A DNA stretch of 41,972 nucleotides from an uncultured Clostridia bacterium (GTDB taxonomy: Bacteria; Bacillota; Clostridia; TANB77; CAG-508). A model generated the notes under the pieces. That model was not told the DNA's origin. It did no database searches and saw nothing but the letters and a program-made list of their open reading frames with translations. The stretch covers positions 1-41,972 of the forward strand of contig CALXAV010000016.1 of NCBI GenBank assembly GCA_944386385.1. Reading direction: 5' to 3'. This document shows positions 1,090-13,414 of the stretch, in pieces. The position numbers were made by a program, and so were the translations under genes. Every line of letters begins with the position of its first letter. Position 1 is the stretch's first letter.

Positions 1090-1165
1090 CGCGGGGTGGA
1101 GCAGTTGGCAGCTCGCAGGGCTCATAACCCTGAGGTCGGTGGTTCGAGTCCATCTCCCGCAACCA
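1090..1165 (+). tRNA. Initiator tRNA-Met (CAT)
   Basis: The 76-nt sequence folds as a full cloverleaf with anticodon CAT at 1123-1125 and an encoded CCA end. It has the initiator marks: an unpaired C1/A72 at the acceptor end, three G-C pairs (GGG/CCC) next to the anticodon loop, and A11-T24 in the D stem. It is therefore tRNA-fMet rather than elongator Met. Its 3' end is the attachment site of the mobile element that follows. Confidence 0.96.
1155..1165 (+). repeat. attL core, in tRNA 3' end
   Basis: TCCCGCAACCA, the acceptor arm and CCA tail of the tRNA, is identical to 12333-12343. Insertion here keeps the tRNA intact. Confidence 0.82.
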
Positions 1166-1405: not shown

Positions 1406-2656
1406 TTATCTTTCAAGTGAATTGTTATTTTTTTTATCTTCATTTTCGATTATAATAGTAGGTTCATCTAAAGTCAATATATTTGCATTTGAATTATCAA
1501 TCAAATTTTGCTCCATATAATATTCATTTACTTTTTCAAGTTCATTTTTCTTATATTTATCAAATACAGAAGTATAGGCATTTAATGTTACAGATACATC
1601 AGTATGTCCCATTAATTTCTGCAATACAACTGGACTCATTCCTGCCTCTATTGCTCGAGTAGCATATGTATGTCTTAAACTATGAGTAGAAAAATGTGGA
1701 ATGTCTAATTCTTTTAATATTTTATTTAACGACCAATTTAAAGTGCTTACTCTTGCATAATGCACAATAGGTGGTTTAAATAGTAAATGTTCATCATTAT
1801 TTGGCATATCTTTTGAAAGTTTTAATTGTTCTATAATAAATGGTTCTAATACTTTTGGAATAGGTAATATTCTATTTCCTGCCTTAGTTTTAGGCGAATC
1901 ACTCATAACTATTGCACCATCTGCCAGTTTTGTTAATGTTTTATTTACATTAATTAAATGATGAGCTAAGTCAATATCTCCAGAATTTAAAGCTAATACT
2001 TCTCCTATACGAAATCCCATAAGTAGTTGCATTAAAAAGGCATTTCTATAAGGAATATCTTTTACACTATGTTCTAATAAATAATTAATAAATTTTGATT
2101 CTTCATCAACTGTCATTGCTCTAACATCTTTATCTTTTTTTACACTTTTAGGTCTTATTACTTCTATCATAGGATTTTTACTAATATAACCTTTATTAAA
2201 AGCATATTTGAAAGCTTGTCCAAATTGTTCATTAAATTTTTTTATTGAAGAATTACTATATGTTTTAGCCATTTCATTTAAAAATGCCTGTATTTCTTCT
2301 GACTTAATATCCTCAATATTTTTAAAACAAAATGGTGCTTTTTTTATTACATTAAGACTTCTTTTAACTCTATCGTATTGTGCTTGAGAAATTAAATTAG
2401 CATTTTTCTTGTTATCTAAGTTTGTAAGCATTAAGTCAAACAATGGAATCCCATTATTTTTAATATAAAGTGGATTTTCTCTACGATAATTTAACTGTTT
2501 TAAGAATTGTTCTGCTTCTTCTTTTGTTGGACAACTCTTTCTTTTCTTTACATATCTATCTTTCATCACATCATATTCTGAATATTGAGCTACCCATTTT
2601 TTACGATCATTTCTAAAATATATTGAACCATTTCCATAATTTATATCATTACTCGT
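1406..2656 (-). CDS. int: Tyrosine-family integrase of the element
   Basis: Site-specific recombinase expected to join and cut the element at the tRNA. Counting from a GTG at 2569, the catalytic residues are R187 (FRIGE), H296-S-L-R299-H, G321-H322 and nucleophile Y332. A central SAM-like core domain precedes them. The frame stays open upstream of that GTG and encodes a typical arm-binding domain (YGNGSIYFRNDRKKWVAQ), so the GTG is too short a start. The only codon at proper distance (8 nt) from the AGGAGGG site is ACG at 2656, giving 416 residues; an ATG-to-ACG change is suspected. The frame is continuous with the excisionase-like gene except for its TAA stop. The family call is certain, the start is not. 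Confidence 0.9.
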   Translation of the reverse strand, partial: TSNDINYGNGSIYFRNDRKKWVAQYSEYDVMKDRYVKKRKSCPTKEEAEQFLKQLNYRRENPLYIKNNGIPLFDLMLTNLDNKKNANLISQAQYDRVKRSLNVIKKAPFCFKNIEDIKSEEIQAFLNEMAKTYSNSSIKKFNEQFGQAFKYAFNKGYISKNPMIEVIRPKSVKKDKDVRAMTVDEESKFINYLLEHSVKDIPYRNAFLMQLLMGFRIGEVLALNSGDIDLAHHLINVNKTLTKLADGAIVMSDSPKTKAGNRILPIPKVLEPFIIEQLKLSKDMPNNDEHLLFKPPIVHYARVSTLNWSLNKILKELDIPHFSTHSLRHTYATRAIEAGMSPVVLQKLMGHTDVSVTLNAYTSVFDKYKKNELEKVNEYYMEQNLIDNSNANILTLDEPTIIIENEDKKNNNSLER

Positions 2657-4721: not shown

Positions 4722-5487
4722 TATTTTTAGCCTCCTCACATAATTTTTGATAAATATATTCAATTATCACATTGTCTATATATTCTATTTTTTCAATATT
4801 GGTAGCAATTTTCAAATCTTTATCTGGAAGTTTTAGATAATATTTAAGTACCAAAAATTGATATGAAACAAAAATATACTTTTTAAGATATTTTAAAATC
4901 ATCATTAGTTCTTTTTGATAAAATTCCATTTCTTGAATTTTATAATCTGTTGAAGTCAAAAATGTCTGTTTATCAATTACGGATTCCTCTAAAAAATCAT
5001 AATTTTCAAAATCGTTAAGGTTTAATTCTTGACTTTCAGGTTTAATTTTTCCATTTTTAATTTTTTGTTTACGATATTTGATTAATCTTCCTAAGTCCTT
5101 ATAATTTCTTAAATAAGCTCTTATTTTTTCTTTTGTAATAGTTATTGTCTGTTTTTTATACTCTGTAAACCACGGAATAGTTTTAGCAACATTTTTGTAA
5201 TTGCTACTATATGTGTTATCTTTATGTATGGTTTCTTGTAAATCATCTCTTTTGTTCATATTTGCTTGATTTTTAACTACATCTAAAATATTACCTTTTA
5301 TCATTTCATCAACAATTTCACTTTTGGGAATATCCTTTTCACTGTTATTAAGTAAATTGTCTAAAAGAATTTCATCTTCTGATAATTTTTTGTAGTTAAA
5401 ATTAAGGTTGTCTTTCTGATGTTTTTTGTCTTTTTTATTATCCAATTTTGTTTTTCCTTTCTTTGATATTGCAATACCAATTTTCAT
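4696..5487 (-). CDS. Hypothetical protein, possible regulator
   Basis: A 263-residue, strongly charged protein, first gene of the leftward operon that ends with the integrase. Residues 1-60 are lysine-rich and probably disordered. The last 70 residues (YQFLVLKYYLKLPDKDLKIA then YIDNVIIEYIYQKL) have a spacing like sigma region 4 or ArpU-type helices, but this is only a resemblance. No good ribosome site is visible before the ATG. I cannot name a family. Confidence 0.55.
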   Translation of the reverse strand: MKIGIAISKKGKTKLDNKKDKKHQKDNLNFNYKKLSEDEILLDNLLNNSEKDIPKSEIVDEMIKGNILDVVKNQANMNKRDDLQETIHKDNTYSSNYKNVAKTIPWFTEYKKQTITITKEKIRAYLRNYKDLGRLIKYRKQKIKNGKIKPESQELNLNDFENYDFLEESVIDKQTFLTSTDYKIQEMEFYQKELMMILKYLKKYIFVSYQFLVLKYYLKLPDKDLKIATNIEKIEYIDNVIIEYIYQKLCEEAKNNGRNKDNL

Positions 5488-5638
5488 ATTAGCTAGCTTG
5501 ACTATATGGTAGCATGGTAGAAAAGCATAAAATCGCCTTTTTCTAAAAGTTTCTAATTGTTTGATATACTTTCTAATTAAAACTAAAAATCACTAAAAAA
5601 TTAGTTTTATAAAATCCTTTGAATAATTGAATTAAACG

Positions 5639-5674
5639 CAAAAAAAGAACGTGTAGTTTAAATTTCACGTTCTT
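5639..5674 (-). terminator. Terminator of the XRE regulator gene
   Basis: AAGAACGTG/CACGTTCTT, a perfect 9-bp stem with a 12-nt loop, is followed on the minus strand by a run of T. It lies 55 bases past the regulator's stop and isolates it from the integrase operon. Confidence 0.8.
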
Positions 5675-5728
5675 AATTTTTAATCATAAAATATTTTCAA
5701 ATCATTATTGGGCATTTCTATATTTTAT

Positions 5729-6430
5729 TTAATTATTAAATATTTCTAAATATAGGGCATTTTCTTCTTTTAATGTATGATTTTCTTTTTCGGTTAATTT
5801 CAAATCTTCAAACATTTTGTCAGTAAATTCTACATCTTTTTTTGAAAAGTAACATTTTCTGATTGAAGGTCTATATTGTCTATCTGTTCCTAAATATGAG
5901 CCCATCATTAAATCATCTACACCATTACATACATTAATTATAATCTCTGCAACTTCTAATCTAGCATTATTAGGTTTATAATTTTCAAGTATGATAAAAC
6001 AAGCATTGTCATCAGATAACATATATCCAGAAGTATATATTTTATTATCTGCTAAATCAATCATATCTACTTGTATATAATTAGGATATTCTTTTATATC
6101 TAATCTATATTTACCTTTACCAAATTTTCCAGTTCTATAATTATAAGCATTAAAATACATGTATAGACAATTAGCTTTAAATGGATTTTTTATATCATCT
6201 TTATTTTTTATCTTATAGTCCATTTCAAATAATTCAGTAGAATAAACACCAAAAATTTGGCATAATTCTTTTATTATTTGAGCATTTGGTATCATTTCTC
6301 CACTTTCAAATCTCCCTATTGTTGTTCTACTTATATTCAATTTATTCGCAAGATTTTCTTGACTTAAACCTTTGATTTTTCTTAATTCTCTTAATTTATT
6401 TCCAAATTCTTTACTATTAAAATCGGACAT
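5729..6430 (-). CDS. XRE/Cro-CI family regulator
   Basis: A 233-residue regulator; start MSDFNSKEF at 6430 with GGGTGAT upstream. Residues 7-62 form an HTH_3 domain (LRELRKIKGLSQENLANKLN, then ISRTTIGRFESG). The C-terminal 150 residues (from FKANCLYMYFNAYNY) are an unrecognised sensor-like domain with no LexA-type Ser/Lys protease motif obvious. It is transcribed away from the structured-RNA promoter, with a palindrome between the two, so it may repress both. Likely the element's master repressor. Confidence 0.75.
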   Translation of the reverse strand: MSDFNSKEFGNKLRELRKIKGLSQENLANKLNISRTTIGRFESGEMIPNAQIIKELCQIFGVYSTELFEMDYKIKNKDDIKNPFKANCLYMYFNAYNYRTGKFGKGKYRLDIKEYPNYIQVDMIDLADNKIYTSGYMLSDDNACFIILENYKPNNARLEVAEIIINVCNGVDDLMMGSYLGTDRQYRPSIRKCYFSKKDVEFTDKMFEDLKLTEKENHTLKEENALYLEIFNN

Positions 6431-6455
6431 AAAATCACCCACTTTACATAATAAG

Positions 6456-6484
6456 ATTATAACATATTTTTCCATTTTTTTGAA
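6456..6484 (-). promoter_or_regulatory. Promoter of the XRE regulator
   Basis: On the minus strand TTCAAA (6484-6479) and TATAAT (6461-6456) are 17 bases apart, 26 bases before the regulator's ATG. Confidence 0.6.
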
Positions 6485-6505
6485 TGTTTGAAGTGGAGAT
6501 TTGCT

Positions 6506-6553
6506 TGATATATCAGCACTTTATTTGATTTGTATTAATAAAAGTAGTATAAT
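6506..6553 (+). promoter_or_regulatory. Divergent promoter and operator for the structured RNA
   Basis: TTGATT (6525-6530), 17 bases, then TATAAT (6548-6553) form a strong plus-strand promoter. A perfect palindrome, TGATATATCA, at 6506-6515 lies between it and the regulator's promoter and is a good operator candidate. Confidence 0.65.
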
Positions 6554-6559
6554 ATATGT

Positions 6560-6842
6560 ATACCTATTTGTAGGTTTATATGGTCTTATCTTTTTATATA
6601 AGAATCCAACCCAAGCTAAATGCTTGATGTTATTCAATATTTTTAGTAAACACTCCAAGCATTGTAGCTGCTTGGATTTTTGTATAGAATCCACCACCTA
6701 GGCTGGATTCCTAGAAATATTGATACATTGCAAATAGAGACTAAAAGAAAGGAAGCCAGCATTATGAAAGATTATGAGTACGGTGGGCGGAAGTCCTGGT
6801 TGCTAGATAAGGCGACTAGGGGAACTTAATTGTTCCCCACCT
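6560..6842 (+). ncRNA. Structured non-coding RNA (unassigned)
   Basis: The region is GC-richer than its surroundings and full of nested complementarity. From 5' to 3': CCTA/TAGG near 6563; CAAGC/GCTTG at 6612-6626; TCCAAGCA/TGCTTGGA at 6654-6676 followed by five T; GAATCCA/TGGATTC at 6688-6710. The 3' end is a clean three-way junction. GGTGG (6782-6786) pairs with CCACC (6837-6841) and encloses two abutting hairpins, CCTGGTTGC/GCGACTAGG (6795-6820) and GGAAC/GTTCC (6821-6836). A strong promoter precedes it. No credible protein is encoded. It could be a known mobile-element RNA class (raiA-type or other Rfam family) that I cannot confirm by eye. Confidence 0.6.
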
Positions 6843-6843
6843 A

Positions 6844-6872
6844 TTTAAAAATTTTTCTTTTTGTAGTATAAT
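6844..6872 (+). promoter_or_regulatory. Promoter of the hairpin RNA
   Basis: TTTAAA (6844-6849), 17 bases, TATAAT (6867-6872). The -35 is poor, the -10 is perfect. Confidence 0.45.
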
Positions 6873-6878
6873 ATATTT

Positions 6879-6989
6879 GATAATTATTTTAAACTTGCTA
6901 CAAAAGTTTAAATAATTATATAGTTTTAAGAGAAATCTTAAAACAAGAAAAGCATGGTCATTCGCTGGATTCCCCATGCTTTTTCTTTT
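6879..6989 (+). ncRNA. Small three-hairpin RNA
   Basis: Three consecutive hairpins follow the promoter: 6882-6917 (15 against 14 bases with one bulge); 6923-6944 (9 bp closed by a GAAA tetraloop); and 6948-6983 (AAAAGCATGG/CCATGCTTTT with a 16-nt loop), ending in a T-rich tract as an intrinsic terminator. The last loop contains GCTGGATTCC, which also occurs in the upstream RNA at 6702-6711 and is complementary to its two GAATCCA segments, so pairing between the two RNAs is possible. No protein is encoded. Confidence 0.5.
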
Positions 6990-7007
6990 ATGCATTTTAT
7001 TATAGGT

Positions 7008-7140
7008 ATGTGCAAAATTTGCACATTTTTTACTTTTTAGCTGTTTTTTTATAAAAGAACTTTTAAATTTATGTATTTTGCTTCTCCAACCTTTATAAAT
7101 GTTCATATCATGCACATTTATGCACTTATTTTGCACATTT
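7008..7140. promoter_or_regulatory. TGCAC-box operator cluster
   Basis: A 9-bp inverted repeat ATGTGCAAA/TTTGCACAT with one central base lies at 7008-7026. Three more TGCAC boxes at 7111, 7121 and 7132 are spaced 10 and 11 bases apart, one DNA turn each, and end just before the -35 of the Spo0A-like gene. Confidence 0.5.
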
Positions 7141-7147
7141 TATCTTT

Positions 7148-7176
7148 TTGAATTGTTTACATAATTTGAGTATAAT
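7148..7176 (+). promoter_or_regulatory. Promoter of the Spo0A-like gene
   Basis: TTGAAT (7148-7153) and TATAAT (7171-7176) are 17 bases apart, 35 bases before the ATG. Confidence 0.7.
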
Positions 7177-7210
7177 TAAATTAGTTTTAAAGGAAAGGTT
7201 GGAAAGAGTA

Positions 7211-7573
7211 ATGAGGACTGTTAATAGTAAACTTAGTCCAAGTGAAGTTTTACAAATTACAAATATACTTCGTTCTTTAGGCTTAAATACTTCATATATT
7301 GGAACTAAATTAATAAATAAGTCTATACAATATATTATTAAAAATGATATTGAGTTCATTACTCTTGAAAAGATTTATTCATATTTGCATTGTGAATATG
7401 GTTTTAATATTCATTCTATAAGAAATAATATTAATTATGCTTTATCTAATAGAAATAAGAATCTATCTATAAAAAATTTTGAAAAAGTTTTTGGATATGA
7501 ATATTATGAAAAAAATTTTGAGCCTAAACTTTTTATTGAAGAGGTTAGTAATTTAATAAAAAGAATTTCTTAA
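7211..7573 (+). CDS. Orphan Spo0A C-terminal DNA-binding domain protein
   Basis: A 120-residue protein from the ATG at 7211, which follows AAGGAAAGG/GGAAAGAG. It aligns along its whole length with the effector domain of the sporulation regulator Spo0A: ITNILRSLGLNTSYIGTKLI at the start, a helix-rich middle (YSYLHCEYGFNIHSIRNNIN), then FEKVFGYEY and FIEEVSNLI at the end. The phosphoacceptor receiver domain is absent, and 7211 is the first good start, so this is not a truncated frame. It therefore cannot be switched by the sporulation phosphorelay in the usual way. It may control the element or interfere with host sporulation genes; the latter is speculation. Confidence 0.8.
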   Translation: MRTVNSKLSPSEVLQITNILRSLGLNTSYIGTKLINKSIQYIIKNDIEFITLEKIYSYLHCEYGFNIHSIRNNINYALSNRNKNLSIKNFEKVFGYEYYEKNFEPKLFIEEVSNLIKRIS

Positions 7574-7591
7574 TTATAAAGTAAAAATACA

Positions 7592-7626
7592 GTCAAAGTT
7601 ATTTAAACAATAACTTTGACCGCATT
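7592..7626. terminator. Bidirectional terminator
   Basis: GTCAAAGTTATT/AATAACTTTGAC, a perfect 12-bp stem with loop TAAAC, has T runs on both strands. It serves the Spo0A-like gene and the convergent nuclease gene. Confidence 0.85.
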
Positions 7627-7668
7627 TTTACAATATTGCAATCTAACTTATTCAATTAAAAATAATTA

Positions 7669-9981
7669 TTATATGTCTCCAAGCAAATCAATATCTAGCA
7701 ACTTTTGTATCACCATAATTTTTGCAAGTTTATTATCTTCATTCGTTTCTTCGTTTATATAAGAATTTATAAATTCAATAATCTTTTCATCTTTTTCTTC
7801 TTCAGATGTAGCATTATTTATAATTTCGTTTGTTTTCTCTAAAACTTCAAGTTTGAAAATACCCATTCTAATACAGTTTGCGTATCCTTCCTTATTTTCT
7901 TCTAAATCCACATTAATGTTTCTTATATTTAATTTTCCATATTTAAAAAATGCATTAATAAATCTTTCAATTTTATTATTATCAGTATAATTTATGAAAT
8001 TTTCTTCTACTATATATGATGCTCCTATGCTCATAAAAATATCTTCTAACCAATCTTTATTGTTCTCAATGTCCACAATATTTTGAGTTTCTTCTACTCT
8101 TTTTAATATATTCTGAACATAAACAAATAATTCTGGTGGTTCATCTATTATTGCATTAGTAATTTCTTGCTTTAGTTCTTTAAGTTTATCACCATTAATT
8201 AATTCTACCCCATTAGCTTTCGCTAGTTCGATAGCAGAGGGTGTAAAATTATTATTAGTTACTACTATAGCTTGGTTAGCTCCATACATTTTTATTGAAG
8301 CCACAACTTCTTGAACAGCTTTATTTCCTACAGGTGAATTATAATATTTTGATTGAATAACATATTTTCTACCATCTTTATTTGCAATAACATCAGCTCC
8401 TTGATCTCCACTTTTCTTTGTAACTTCTTCAATTGTGTACCCCAACTTCTTATATAAGTTAGCAACATATTCTTCAAAATCATATCCATTTTGTATATTT
8501 TCAAAAGAATATTCTTCTTCTATCATTTTATCTTCTTTATCAAAATTTCCAGATAAATATCTATCTCTTTCTTTTTTCATTTTTTCCTTTTTTTCATTTT
8601 TTTTATTTATTTCAATAGCTTTATAATATTGTTCACAATGAAAAGAGTTATAAAAAAATTCTTTAGCCGTTAATTCACTCATCAAATCATATAGTAAATT
8701 ATTAACTATATAGAAATTGTTATCTTCTTTTTCTTCATTACTTTCCCCTGGTATAACATCAATAATATACATTTTAGATAATAATTCATAAATAGCTCTA
8801 CTTGTACTTTTTTCATTTTCAATAGCATTATATTTTTCTTTATATCTTTTATATTCTTTAACTGTTTCTTCTTTATTAGATGATATATTTGTTTTATTAT
8901 AATATTTGAACCATAAAACTATACCTAATTCTTCCTTTTTAAAAATAGTAGTGCTCATGTCCGTATATAAACTATCATACATTTCATAAATTTGATTAGT
9001 TATATATGTAATTTTTAATCTTTTTTTAATTAATTGATTATAAATAGTTTCAAGTTCTGGATGAATTTCAGAAACATGTTGACTTAAAGCTATTAAATAA
9101 CATAATATATAAGCTAAACAATATGGATATAGAATTTCTAACCAAAGATACATATAATTAGATATGACGCCCTCATCATCTGAAAGATTCATAATTTTGT
9201 TCCTAATATCTATGATTAAAAAATATTGCTCTTCGTTTATTTCATCTATTAATGTTAATGAATAAATATATTTTTCTATATTGTTATCATTACATAACTG
9301 TAAAAATTGTTGTATAATTCTTTTTAATTCATTTAAAGTATTAGGAGAATCTATACTCTTCCTCAATTCTTCTAAAAAGTCCTTTGAAAATTCATCATCA
9401 TCTATATTAAAAAGTTCATAATATACTTCATCATCAGGGCTCTTAACATATTTTTTAACAATATCATATAATATATTTTCATTTTCAAAAACTTTCTTTA
9501 CATCATCAATAGAAAAAGAAATACCGTTCGTGTTGCTTTCAAAGCATTTTAATTTTGACAAATATTGAAATATTATTTCAACAAGCAATGAATTATTAAT
9601 TTGTTGATATTTGTCTGTAAGTTCTAAATACTTTTCTACATATTTTTTACTATCTTGAGAAAATATAGTAAACAGAGTATACATAAATCTATTAGAAAGT
9701 TTATCTTTTAAAAATTCTAGTATAGAATTTCTTTTTTCTTCAATTTTTTGTTCTTCTATTTTCTTTTTCTTTTCCAATTCTAACTTCTCTTGAATTTTCT
9801 TCTTTCTTTCAAGTTCTCTTTTTTCTTCTTCTTCTTTTCTTTCTCTATTAAGTTCTTCAAATTTTTCTTTTTCCGCTTCTTCATGTAATTTTATTTTGTA
9901 ACATTCTTCGCAAATTCCATTATCATATTCTGTTTCTAAAAATTTAAATTTTCTTCCACATATTTTGCAATATCTTCCCAT
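7669..9981 (-). CDS. Zinc-ribbon / Mrr-family nuclease, probable defence protein
   Basis: A 770-residue protein with an AAAGGAG site. Residues 5-27 form a C-x2-C...C-x2-C zinc ribbon (C5, C8, C24, C27). Residues 30-90 are a charged coiled coil. A long alpha-helical region of unknown family follows (about 95-480). Residues 497-605 are an Mrr-type restriction endonuclease domain: FEEYVANLYKKLGY with E503, then GDQGADV with D530, then Q543-S-K545 as the D...QxK active site, then ELINGDKL. A further helical C-terminus of 160 residues ends the protein. Mrr-domain enzymes cut modified or foreign DNA, so an anti-phage role is the natural guess. It is a stand-alone gene with no methylase beside it. 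Confidence 0.8.
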   Translation of the reverse strand: MGRYCKICGRKFKFLETEYDNGICEECYKIKLHEEAEKEKFEELNRERKEEEEKRELERKKKIQEKLELEKKKKIEEQKIEEKRNSILEFLKDKLSNRFMYTLFTIFSQDSKKYVEKYLELTDKYQQINNSLLVEIIFQYLSKLKCFESNTNGISFSIDDVKKVFENENILYDIVKKYVKSPDDEVYYELFNIDDDEFSKDFLEELRKSIDSPNTLNELKRIIQQFLQLCNDNNIEKYIYSLTLIDEINEEQYFLIIDIRNKIMNLSDDEGVISNYMYLWLEILYPYCLAYILCYLIALSQHVSEIHPELETIYNQLIKKRLKITYITNQIYEMYDSLYTDMSTTIFKKEELGIVLWFKYYNKTNISSNKEETVKEYKRYKEKYNAIENEKSTSRAIYELLSKMYIIDVIPGESNEEKEDNNFYIVNNLLYDLMSELTAKEFFYNSFHCEQYYKAIEINKKNEKKEKMKKERDRYLSGNFDKEDKMIEEEYSFENIQNGYDFEEYVANLYKKLGYTIEEVTKKSGDQGADVIANKDGRKYVIQSKYYNSPVGNKAVQEVVASIKMYGANQAIVVTNNNFTPSAIELAKANGVELINGDKLKELKQEITNAIIDEPPELFVYVQNILKRVEETQNIVDIENNKDWLEDIFMSIGASYIVEENFINYTDNNKIERFINAFFKYGKLNIRNINVDLEENKEGYANCIRMGIFKLEVLEKTNEIINNATSEEEKDEKIIEFINSYINEETNEDNKLAKIMVIQKLLDIDLLGDI

Positions 9982-10589: not shown

Positions 10590-10619
10590 TAAAAAATAGG
10601 AAAGAAGGTGGAATTTAAT

Positions 10620-10880
10620 ATGGATTTTTCTGATTTGGTCGCCTTAAAAATAAAGGAATTAATGCAAGAACAAAATATTACTATTTATAAATTAGAAAAT
10701 CTTTCTGGTGTATATAGTTCTACTATTGCAATGTTTTTAACACGAAAAACAAAGACAATTAGATTAGAAAATTTGCTATATATTTGTGAAGGTTTAGGAA
10801 CTAATTTATCTGAATTTTTTGCAGATGAAAGATTTAAAGATGCTGAAGCTAAAGAATGGACAAAAAAGAAAAGTAATTGA
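10620..10880 (+). CDS. Small Cro/CI-type HTH regulator
   Basis: An 86-residue DNA-binding protein. The ATG at 10620 is preferred to a GTG at 10608 because AAGAAGGTGG lies properly before it. Residues 5-65 are an HTH_3-like domain (LKIKELMQEQNITIYKLENL, SGVYSSTIAMFL, LENLLYICEGLGTNLSEFF). The C-terminus is a short charged tail. It faces the repeat-rich region at 10511-10589, which it probably binds. Its stop codon lies inside the downstream terminator stem. Confidence 0.75.
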   Translation: MDFSDLVALKIKELMQEQNITIYKLENLSGVYSSTIAMFLTRKTKTIRLENLLYICEGLGTNLSEFFADERFKDAEAKEWTKKKSN

Positions 10881-10935: not shown

Positions 10936-11994
10936 CTATTTATTTAGGTTATTTATATTATTATCTTTATCATTTATTATTTCAATACCTAATTTATCTT
11001 TTAGTAATTTTTCTATTTTTTTATTTTTATTAAGAAGCTCTTTTATTATTTTATAACAAGCATTTAATTCAATATTATTCATTCTTAATTTTTCTTCTAA
11101 TTCTTGATTTTCATTCATAAGATGACTATTTTCTATCTGTAAATCCGAATAGTATTTTTTTGCATTTTTAGTTTTAGATAATTCTAATAATAAATCATTA
11201 TTTTGTTTTACTAAACTATTATTATATTTTATTATTGGATAAATTAGTTTTCTATCTATATTTTCTTTCGTAAAATCTTCATATTTATAAAATTCTTGAA
11301 CATCTTCATAACCTATCATTTGTTCTTTTTGCTTGGTTAGATTTTCTTTTAATTGCTTTGTATTATAAAAATTAGTTAATTTTTTCATGTCATCAGTAGG
11401 TATATGTTCTCTATTTGTATTTTCTTTTCCTCTTTCCAAATCGAATCCTTTTTCAGTAATATATTTATAAAATTGATTTTGTAACTTTTTGTAACTATCC
11501 TTACCTTTCCAAAATTCACTTGCTGATATTTTTCGGATATTCTTTCCTTGTTTATCTTTTGCGTTTACTACTGGTATATATACTAAGTGCATATGTGGAG
11601 TTTCTTCATCTAAATGCACAACAGCAGTTAATATATTTTCTTTTCCAATTCCTTTGTATTCTGTCATAAATTTAAAACATTCTTGAAAATATCTTTTTGT
11701 TTCTTTTTTACCTATTCCATTAAAAAATGTATTGTCTGAAGTTAATATTACTTCACAGACATAAATACTATTTTTGTGTAGTTGTCCTTGAGATAAATTA
11801 TTTTCTTTTATTAATCTATTGTATTCCTTTAAATAAGTGTTTTCTTTTGGTAGTTTTAAATGATAATTTTGACTTGTTTTTGACAAGTCTATATTTTTGT
11901 TTGAATATTTCTTTTTAAATCTTTCATTATGAGGCGCTAGCTGAATCATCTCATCTTTTGTGTATTTTTCATTTCTTATAATTGCATAACTCAT
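10936..11994 (-). CDS. mobV: MobV-family relaxase (Mob/Pre)
   Basis: A 352-residue mobilization relaxase that should nick oriT and pilot the strand into a recipient using another element's secretion system. The family's N-terminal signature H22-N-E-R is followed by NKNIDLSKTSQNYHL. The metal-binding motif H127-L-D-E-E-T-P-H134-M-H136 is intact. The C-terminal 120 residues are a coiled coil, as usual in MobV proteins. Length is typical of small MobV members. AAGGAGGTAA precedes the ATG. The matching oriT lies 130-190 bases upstream of the start. Confidence 0.92.
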   Translation of the reverse strand: MSYAIIRNEKYTKDEMIQLAPHNERFKKKYSNKNIDLSKTSQNYHLKLPKENTYLKEYNRLIKENNLSQGQLHKNSIYVCEVILTSDNTFFNGIGKKETKRYFQECFKFMTEYKGIGKENILTAVVHLDEETPHMHLVYIPVVNAKDKQGKNIRKISASEFWKGKDSYKKLQNQFYKYITEKGFDLERGKENTNREHIPTDDMKKLTNFYNTKQLKENLTKQKEQMIGYEDVQEFYKYEDFTKENIDRKLIYPIIKYNNSLVKQNNDLLLELSKTKNAKKYYSDLQIENSHLMNENQELEEKLRMNNIELNACYKIIKELLNKNKKIEKLLKDKLGIEIINDKDNNINNLNK

Positions 11995-12332: not shown

Positions 12333-12343
12333 TCCCGCAACCA
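12333..12343 (+). repeat. attR core
   Basis: TCCCGCAACCA, identical to the tRNA end at 1155-1165. The bases before it do not pair as a tRNA, so this is the element boundary and not a second tRNA. Confidence 0.8.
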
Positions 12344-12701: not shown

Positions 12702-12726
12702 AGGCTAACTTTGGTTGGTCTTTTTT
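12702..12726 (+). terminator. Terminator of the small gene
   Basis: AGGCTAAC/GTTGGTCT, 8 pairs including two G-U, loop TTTG, then six T. It overlaps the end of the convergent fic gene. Confidence 0.7.
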
Positions 12727-13414
12727 ATCTTTCAATAATATCACTTAAAGAGCTTATTTTTTCATTTATTCCATGCTCTATTGCTCGCTTTATTAATGCT
12801 TCAAAATGTTCTGGTTCTGGATAGTCTTTTTCATCTAAAGCTGCTAATACTAGTTTATCTCTTAAACTATATCTAAGTATTCTTCCTGTTTCTTCATCTT
12901 CTACTCTTCCTAAATGATCTAATAATGTACTCATATCCATCTCAAATCCATGTTGTTTTGCAAAAATACTAGCAAATGTTAATGTGGCTCTAGTATTTCC
13001 ATCTCTGAATGGATGTATTCTCCACATCCTTGCAATAAAACCAGAAAAATTTTTAGTTATCTCGTCAATTCCTTTCGCTTCCCAATCAAATTCATTCATC
13101 TTTTCCATAATGTCTTCCAATTTAAATTCTATATCTTCTGGTTTAGCGTATTCTAAACTTAATCCAGGAATAACAACTTCTGTTTTATATAAAGGTACTG
13201 TTCTATATTCTCCTGCCCAATCAAATATATCCCCAAAAATATGCTTGTGGACTTTTCTTAATAATTCTGGATTACATTCTTGATGTATTTCTCTATTTGC
13301 ATTTATTAACTTTACATATCCAATATCTGTTTCTGCTTGTTGTAATTCTTCATAATCTGTGATACCTAATAAATTCTTTAATGTTCCATCTTCTAACACA
13401 TAAGGATCTTTCAT
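12725..13414 (-). CDS. fic: Fic/Doc-family AMP-transferase toxin
   Basis: A 229-residue Fic protein. The core motif is H134-P-F-R-D-G-N-T-R142, close to the consensus HPFx[D/E]GN[G/K]R but with Thr at the seventh position and no second arginine three residues on. The upstream DWAGEYRT (65-72) and IARMWRIHPF helix are typical. Such enzymes usually transfer AMP to target proteins. The VbhA-like gene ends 2 bases before its ATG and provides the ribosome site AGAAAGAGG. It is the last gene of the operon that starts with the DtxR-like regulator. Toxic activity is inferred, not proven. Confidence 0.87.
   Translation of the reverse strand: MKDPYVLEDGTLKNLLGITDYEELQQAETDIGYVKLINANREIHQECNPELLRKVHKHIFGDIFDWAGEYRTVPLYKTEVVIPGLSLEYAKPEDIEFKLEDIMEKMNEFDWEAKGIDEITKNFSGFIARMWRIHPFRDGNTRATLTFASIFAKQHGFEMDMSTLLDHLGRVEDEETGRILRYSLRDKLVLAALDEKDYPEPEHFEALIKRAIEHGINEKISSLSDIIER

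Follow-up and report, generated by a model that had tools for sequence, protein, structure and literature searches.

We analysed a 41,972-nucleotide stretch of DNA from an uncultured Clostridia bacterium (contig CALXAV010000016.1 of assembly GCA_944386385.1; hereafter the window). Between a helix-turn-helix (HTH) repressor gene and a gene for a Spo0A_C-like DNA-binding protein it holds a structured RNA, RNA1, and immediately downstream, on the same strand and in tandem, a second small RNA, RNA2; the ~11.2-kb region in which they lie is an integrative mobilizable element (Table 1). Comparison with relatives reveals two promoters, two alternative folds of RNA1, two complementary contacts between the RNAs and the co-evolution of these contacts. 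We think it reasonably probable that the pair is an antisense switch made of two RNAs and placed in the element's control region, in which RNA2 would repress RNA1 through both attenuation and a translation block, the likeliest output being a mini open reading frame (mini-ORF) that carries a rare codon.

Table 1. Features of the element and of its RNA control region (positions in the window).
Feature	Position	Strand	Basis or remark
tRNA-Met	1090..1165	+	ARAGORN
Tyrosine integrase	1406..2569	-	Pfam Phage_integrase 6.8e-21; PHROG integrase 1.1e-66
HTH repressor (REP), divergent from RNA1	5729..6475	-	Pfam HTH_3 8.7e-14
RNA1 promoter TTGATT-17-TATAAT	6525..6553	+	equivalent site in relatives
RNA1 (target RNA)	6560..6842	+	fold z -6.1; close and diverged copies; predicted ends
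Attenuator segments 1 and 2, CAAGC/GCTTG hairpin	6612..6626	+	homologue comparison
Intrinsic terminator inside RNA1	6654..6681	+	contact loop TTGTAGC 6662-6668
Anti-Shine-Dalgarno in 5′ untranslated region, GCTGGATTCC	6702..6711	+	minimum-energy fold
Shine-Dalgarno AAAGGA of mini-ORF	6748..6753	+	sequence
Mini-ORF MKDYEYGGRKSWLLDKATRGT	6764..6829	+	in-frame CGG 6788-6790; overlaps three-way junction
3′ hairpin GGGGAAC/GTTCCCC	6819..6838	+	G/C hairpin there in most relatives, by eye
RNA2 promoter TTTAAA-17-TATAAT	6844..6872	+	21-locus scoring
RNA2, antisense small RNA, ~110 nt	6879..6990	+	predicted ends
RNA2 hairpin 1	6880..6919	+	loop GCTACAA 6897-6903, complementary to 6662-6668
RNA2 terminator hairpin	6952..6985	+	loop 6958-6973 holds anti-ribosome-binding site GCTGGATTCC
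Spo0A_C-like DNA-binding protein	7148..7573	+	Pfam Spo0A_C 5.4e-6; probable start ATG 7211
Mob/Pre relaxase	10936..11994	-	Pfam Mob_Pre 7.1e-46

RNA1, its attenuator and a second promoter

A sequence-only reading of this DNA had proposed a real, folded RNA, richer in GC than its surroundings, carried by a mobile element and transcribed from a TTGATT-17-TATAAT promoter, and in these respects it was borne out. The promoter is present; an integrase, a Mob/Pre relaxase and attachment (att)-like repeats surround RNA1; and the GC fraction of positions 6650–6799 is 0.41, compared with 0.17–0.33 in the other 150-base segments of 5000–8449 and 0.32 and 0.37 in the neighbouring segments that overlap it. 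Positions 6560–6845 fold at −88.7 kcal/mol against a shuffled mean of −62.5 (z −6.1), with none of 200 shuffles folding as well. The same reading had wavered between a known Rfam class, with raiA as a candidate, and a new RNA, and it is the latter that stands: at the gathering threshold Rfam 15 returned two tRNAs only from the whole window and nothing at RNA1, a scan of 6400–7020 at E ≤ 10 gave sub-threshold matches only, and 14 diverged relatives searched at E ≤ 0.05 gave four irrelevant matches, raiA appearing in neither the window nor these relatives. The weak scores of rliE and Spy490380c in 6400–7020 were far under their thresholds, and we dismissed them as chance matches in AT-rich sequence.

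The RNA1 promoter has equivalents elsewhere (loci are given L-numbers and genomes G-numbers): at the corresponding place, 20 of 21 loci scored have TATAAT 17 nt after a TTGnnn box, and in the exception, L078, a TTGACA-18-TTTAAT site outscored the equivalent. In the alignment of close relatives, conservation extends beyond 6842 to ~6990, and this downstream segment has a promoter of its own, in which TATAAT is perfect (6/6) in all 21 loci and follows a −35-like box (4–5 of 6) after a spacer of 17 nt (16 in one). That promoter lies 19–24 nt upstream of the loop through which RNA2 could contact RNA1, and when each region was shuffled, an equal score was reached in 0 to 3.5% of cases. RNA2 itself forms three hairpins, one of them with a both-sided change from A-U to G-C in 3 of 10 sequences.

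The attenuator of RNA1 begins with the CAAGC/GCTTG hairpin, in which a C-G pair has become U-A through changes on both sides in one of 10 close homologues, and AATGCTTG in the attenuator segment can alternatively pair with the 5′ arm of the terminator. The terminator pairs were held in 13 of 13 diverged loci and the antiterminator pairs in 9–13 of the 13, with both-sided changes in each: G-C has become A-U in the terminator, for instance, and both C-G and G-C have become U-A in the antiterminator. Judged by conservation and folding energy only, the attenuator is a pair of mutually exclusive conserved folds, terminator and antiterminator, and the terminated short form of RNA1 would end near 6681. 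When folded at nascent length, RNA1 had the terminator 5′ arm paired upstream, as antiterminator, in 14 of 15 loci (L101 gave the terminator), by a margin over the forced terminator of only 0.6–7.2 kcal/mol, a balance that a loop-loop complex could plausibly tip. This arrangement resembles the attenuators of pT181 and pIP501, where the leader of the target is driven into a terminator fold by an antisense RNA and, in pT181 when the antisense RNA is absent, a pre-emptor pairs with the terminator 5′ arm to give read-through (PMC5703833). In pT181 this RNA is counter-transcribed, with complementarity to the leader, and the target is a replication gene, whereas RNA2 lies downstream of RNA1 on the same strand, offers two short contacts and would target a mini-ORF (PMC5703833).

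Farther along, the anti-Shine-Dalgarno (anti-SD) sequence of the 5′ untranslated region (UTR) is able to hide the ribosome-binding site (RBS) around 6751–6760. The equivalent helix has both-sided changes at 3 of its 8 pairs in diverged loci; in whole-RNA1 folds of 16 loci, the SD was paired to the 5′-UTR anti-SD in most, and a closing 5′-3′ helix was present in 11 (by eye).

Complementary contacts between RNA1 and RNA2

The first contact would join the terminator loop of RNA1 to the loop of RNA2 hairpin 1, the unpaired probability of which is 0.99–1.0. Hairpins were picked independently first, and a search was then made for the sequence that would exactly complement each RNA1 loop. In 27 of 30 entries it occurred once, 200–700 bases 3′ of where RNA1 starts; the three without an exact complement were L099, which has one G-U, and L085 and L086, which have no RNA2. 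For nine entries (L033–L035, L039, L083, L084, L041, L109 and L110) the independent pick chose another hairpin, and their loops rest on the complement search and, where shown, on alignments; the loops of L135 and L136 were read by eye, and L081, L082, L085 and L086, which have no RNA2, were left out of the loop table. Among the 12 distinct RNA1/RNA2 loop pairs, 11 were fully Watson-Crick and one had a single G-U, compared with one fully Watson-Crick case (13 mismatch-free with G-U allowed) among the 110 non-matching combinations of seven-base loops. Six of the seven loop positions vary, in step save for one G-U; in L036–L039, for instance, a change from U to C in the RNA1 terminator loop goes with one from A to G in the first loop of RNA2. 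Related copies make up many of the entries, and some entries are one piece of DNA reached through two collections, so that the counts are not independent events; even so, 12 distinct pairs could not have arisen without repeated double changes. In a decayed element (L040; G254 C112, position 819), the repressor and the 5′ part of RNA1 are deleted (window 5349–6748) and the RNA2 contact loop is mutated from GCTACAA to GCTAAAA, as expected, in this one case, once the partner is gone.

The second contact would involve the loop of the RNA2 terminator, whose sequence complements the mini-ORF's SD and start codon in RNA1. With G-U allowed, this anti-RBS match was contiguous over 15–21 bases in 13 of 17 diverged loci and over 11–13 in the other four. 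Cognate pairs scored 33.3 on average against 20.0 for non-cognate pairs (non-cognate maximum 42.8), and among 20 representatives the cognate RNA2 took first place in 12 (tied in one case), second place in four and fourth to ninth place in four, which are the window (W), L032, L033 and L037. On these scores the RBS contact co-diverges, weakly in the window's own copy. Taken with the loop pairs, the comparisons point to a conserved and hitherto undescribed pair of antisense RNAs, both contacts of which they strongly support.

Like par_pAD1 (RNA I/Fst and RNA II), the pair would combine a loop-loop first contact with a subsequent contact at the SD and start codon, an SD hidden by an internal stem-loop and a helix sealing the 5′ end; the par_pAD1 genes are convergent and share a bidirectional terminator, whereas RNA1 and RNA2 are in tandem, with an internal attenuator (PMC7472228). 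A further likeness is to IsrK of the Gifsy-1 prophage, in which a leaky terminator yields a short RNA and an inactive read-through mRNA and a small RNA acts in trans, but the short form of IsrK itself activates translation, whereas RNA2 would be a separate RNA and is expected to repress (PMC4825925). No known family is matched in all its defining features, and the pair is a variant of antisense-controlled units; a comparable system was not found in print in the open-access literature, searched by listing.

The mini-ORF and the proposed switch

An SD-like GGA/AGG stretch precedes the mini-ORF in every locus tabulated, and 22 of 23 loci have an in-frame CGG at codon 8–11 (counting the ATG as 1), at an ATG-to-CGG spacing of 21, 24, 27 or 30 that is in-frame by the counting method. 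In L074, L076 and L081 there are two CGG codons instead of one. Other G/C-ending codons follow the CGG, the rare CCC and TCC among them, and the four core codons have G or C in third position in all 22 loci, while the first positions of codons 2–4 vary freely. The window's genes have 13.5% G+C at third codon positions (GC3) and use CGG once in 11,159 codons, CGC never, CTC once, CCC four times and TCC eight times.

These patterns bear on a type I toxin-antitoxin arrangement, in which RNA1 would encode a toxic or signalling peptide and be silenced, as in the switch set out below, by RNA2 as antisense antitoxin, the effector being the peptide and not its codons. The strong SD, the hidden RBS, the kissing and RBS contacts and the closing 5′-3′ helix, as in par_pAD1, all suit such an arrangement, as does the recurrence of G/D-G-R ahead of the variable part of the peptide. 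However, the peptides are 10–43 residues long (55 in L099), variable in length and sequence after the Arg and, in translations judged by eye, not hydrophobic, unlike the par_pAD1 toxin, which has a hydrophobic domain (PMC7472228), and unlike the type I toxins that C. difficile prophages carry, which are hydrophobic (PMC7699646). Third positions fixed at G or C while first positions vary are the reverse of what selection on a peptide would leave, and therefore argue against a peptide effector. We regard this explanation as unlikely.

We hold instead, with moderate conviction, the hypothesis that RNA1 acts through its codons, as a rare-codon RNA resembling the CreT toxins of H. hispanica, because what these toxins need (a strong SD, an AUG, rare codons and a stable stem-loop; PMC8501985) is present here in kind: a strong SD, an AUG, an early rare codon in all but one of the loci and a downstream stem-loop. 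The two described CreT groups have two consecutive rare codons, whereas RNA1 has one conserved CGG followed by other G/C-ending codons, of which some are rare too, and CreT is silenced by CRISPR-guided CreA, whereas the proposed silencer of RNA1 is an antisense RNA (PMC8501985). Two other candidates were rejected: a GGNC/GNCC hairpin around the CGG as RNA structure, the third pair of which is standard in only about half of loci (by eye), and a CsrA-type site, for which GGA is not kept.

The mini-ORF also overlaps the segment that the sequence-only reading had placed at the core of the RNA, a tight three-way junction at 6782–6842. Its motifs are all there (GGTGG at 6782–6786, CCACC at 6837–6841 and hairpins at 6795–6820 and 6821–6836), but the junction is not strictly three-way, as a two-pair hairpin (6787–6794) stands between the closing stem and the first hairpin in the minimum-energy fold. 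We give next to no credence to a stand-alone folded RNA built around this junction. The piece does fold well (−29.3 kcal/mol, where shuffles average −17.6; z −3.7; none of 200 shuffles as good), and RNAalifold drew a junction of this kind on 10 close homologues, which are too alike to test it. Among six distinct close homologues, however, none of the 20 junction pairs was changed on both sides and three were broken, in four, one and one of the six; and CCACC was absent within 130 bases of the mini-ORF start from all 17 diverged loci examined. By these counts the junction is not what evolution conserves: as that reading had allowed, homologues largely keep a frame, with its CGG, instead of stems in the 3′ part of RNA1, though not in the 5′ part. 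What explains the locus is the second RNA at 6879–6990, which had gone unnoticed.

We propose that RNA1 is transcribed divergently from the repressor gene and that, in its attenuator, pairing of segment 2 with segment 3 would form the antiterminator and give read-through, whereas pairing of segment 3 with segment 4 would form the terminator. RNA2, made from its own downstream promoter, would touch the terminator loop of RNA1 with the loop of its first hairpin and, because the antiterminator needs four of the same seven loop bases (as seen in diverged loci), would block the antiterminator and favour termination. On RNA1 that escaped, the terminator loop of RNA2 would pair across the SD and start codon from which the mini-ORF is read, a site that the internal anti-SD of RNA1 hides already. 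When translated, the in-frame CGG at codon 8–11 would trap ribosomes or tRNA in the fashion of CreT, and unsilenced RNA1 would harm a cell that had lost the element or received a competitor. We infer contact formation, termination, silencing and the role of the mini-ORF from sequence; the mechanism of the pair is likely and its output uncertain. The complete picture, a vacant-codon ribosome trap that is silenced at two levels, has loops that let related elements coexist and kills cells that lose one, is offered tentatively, as a possibility that may well be wrong.

Several observations weigh against the antisense switch or its rare-codon output. L081, L082, L085 (a fragment) and L086 have RNA1 and no RNA2 match. 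The window's own cognate RNA2 ranks 5th of 20 for the anti-RBS, a mismatch breaks its 10-base anti-RBS match (GGAAGCCAGC against GCTGGATTCC), and in the window (W), L032, L033 and L037 the best match is that of the A-rich SD stretch with the U-run of RNA2, not the anti-RBS. L083 has no in-frame CGG, and in L089 a stop codon directly follows it. The helices of RNA1 speak for its fold, with 97.5% of 359 cells paired, both-sided changes at 6 of 30 pairs, 0 to 16 of 500 shuffles reaching the observed value, depending on the measure, and pairing that falls to 28–49% with slid partners; but they were counted on alignment A5 (12 distinct rows), from which the structure had been derived, and are favoured by this. 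Searches of genomes G000, G101 and G222 gave 31, 30 and 28 tRNA matches, all typed, with the Arg anticodons TCT and CCT in all three and ACG in G000 and G222; the anticodon CCG was in none, in drafts that are incomplete and miss some standard tRNAs. That CGG lacks a cognate tRNA in the hosts is suggestive only, and the codon may be unassigned in the window's family.

Finally, the 3′ hairpin of RNA1 has no immediate U-run, and RNA1 may therefore run on into RNA2. The two could then be one structured RNA of ~430 nt, with the loop-loop match as an internal tertiary contact, as their adjacency on one strand and the want of a clear end terminator in RNA1 would allow; covariation by itself cannot separate cis from trans. 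Against this stand the TATAAT box of RNA2, with its 16–17-nt spacer in 21 of 21 loci and its nearly fixed distance to the first hairpin, and a free-standing RNA2 in L108 (5457–5574, minus strand), which has a TATAAT box and a Spo0A_C-like gene and no RNA1 match beside it. Because of this promoter and this free-standing copy, a separate transcript is favoured for RNA2, and a single RNA seems very unlikely.

Apart from their output, the loci form a natural series of antisense pairs whose two contacts have diverged together, so that RNA-RNA recognition, in its specificity and orthogonality, can be studied from sequence and tested directly; the putative RNA switch is retained beside the repressor by a whole family of mobilizable elements from uncultured gut Clostridia. 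Should the mini-ORF act through its CGG, it would link the vacant-codon stage described for a group of AT-rich Firmicutes that includes C. difficile to selfish codon use (PMC8629427). RNA1 would then be a CRISPR-independent counterpart of CreT. It would also be, to our knowledge (literature searched by listing), the first system built on a vacant codon.

Relatives and the surrounding element

A first search, of 94 genomes including the window's own, found a full copy in one other genome, of the same genus. In an order sample of 385 genomes, 25 matched at E ≤ 1e-5 and 10 (own included) covered at least 250 bases, one of these 10 close RNA1 copies being decayed. A covariance model of the RNA1 5′ part matched in 23 of 390 family genomes, many of the matches diverged, and an RNA2-model match lay downstream of RNA1 in 14 of 18 diverged loci. 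DNA pattern scans gave 36 contigs from named genomes and six viral contigs; RNA1 matched in 21 of the 42 (19 titled Clostridia or Clostridium, one Bacilli and one Tenericutes), and contigs without such a match were dropped. L041 is a true relative, whereas the 14 matches L042–L055 had no RNA2-model match. Class and phylum samples gave matches in 3 of 391 and 1 of 398 genomes, all of the window's own genus (own genome counted in both), with filters that lose weak matches and a model, R3, built on one subgroup. Among phages and plasmids, blastn found no relatives of the window or of L084; tblastn of plasmids matched neither the peptide nor the Spo0A_C-like protein; the repressor search matched the HTH part alone, in 19 records; and of the viral pattern scans one was empty and the six matches of the other carry neither RNA by our models.

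The repressor and the Spo0A_C-like protein flank the RNA pair in most relatives that have both genes (35–59% identity to the window in diverged ones, and 73% over 37 residues in L041). This position would fit immunity or copy control of the element, in which RNA2 would act by attenuation on an early transcript made from the RNA1 promoter and important to downstream genes such as the Spo0A_C-like regulator, the mini-ORF being only a leader. It would also fit that L081 and L082 (1.5 kb of downstream DNA) and L103 (the record in which L086 lies) have neither RNA2 nor a Spo0A_C-like gene detectable in the DNA examined, that two genomes each hold two RNA2-bearing elements with different loops (L034 and L136 in G101, L076 and L090 in G536), and that the extra RNA2 beside a regulator gene in L108 has the loop GTCGTAA, to which TTACGAC, the RNA1 loop in an element of another type (L087), is the match. 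We nonetheless find this account fairly unlikely, as the RNA2 terminator and a separate promoter-like site of the Spo0A_C-like gene (TTGAAT-17-TATAAT, 7148–7176) stand between RNA1 and the regulator gene, and the double silencing of the mini-ORF RBS is left unexplained. The extra RNA2 of L108 is a candidate remnant, or a candidate immunity gene against a competitor. Phage P4 CI RNA immunity, hok/sok and the kissing loops of ColE1 may offer further parallels.

The limits of the element come from the tRNA-Met gene, the 3′ end of which, TCCCGCAACCA (1155–1165), recurs exactly at 12333–12343; the two repeats are likely its att sites, and the span of ~11.2 kb follows from them. Within it, a 770-aa protein (7669–9981) has an Mrr_cat domain, partly resembles the models for ZorD and type IV restriction, and is possibly defence cargo. 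A 90-aa ORF of Cro/C1 type (HTH_26; 10608–10880, plus strand) lies between a 129-aa ORF and the mob gene. Immediately past the right att repeat is a gene for a Fic/DOC protein (12725–13414), and the genes past 12,700 are, this one excepted, host-like. Upstream of the Spo0A_C-like gene, 7003–7140 holds the palindrome TGTGCAAAATTTGCACA and then repeated TGCACA/TGCACT words, probably as operators for either the product of that gene or the repressor; relatives have other palindromes at the equivalent place.
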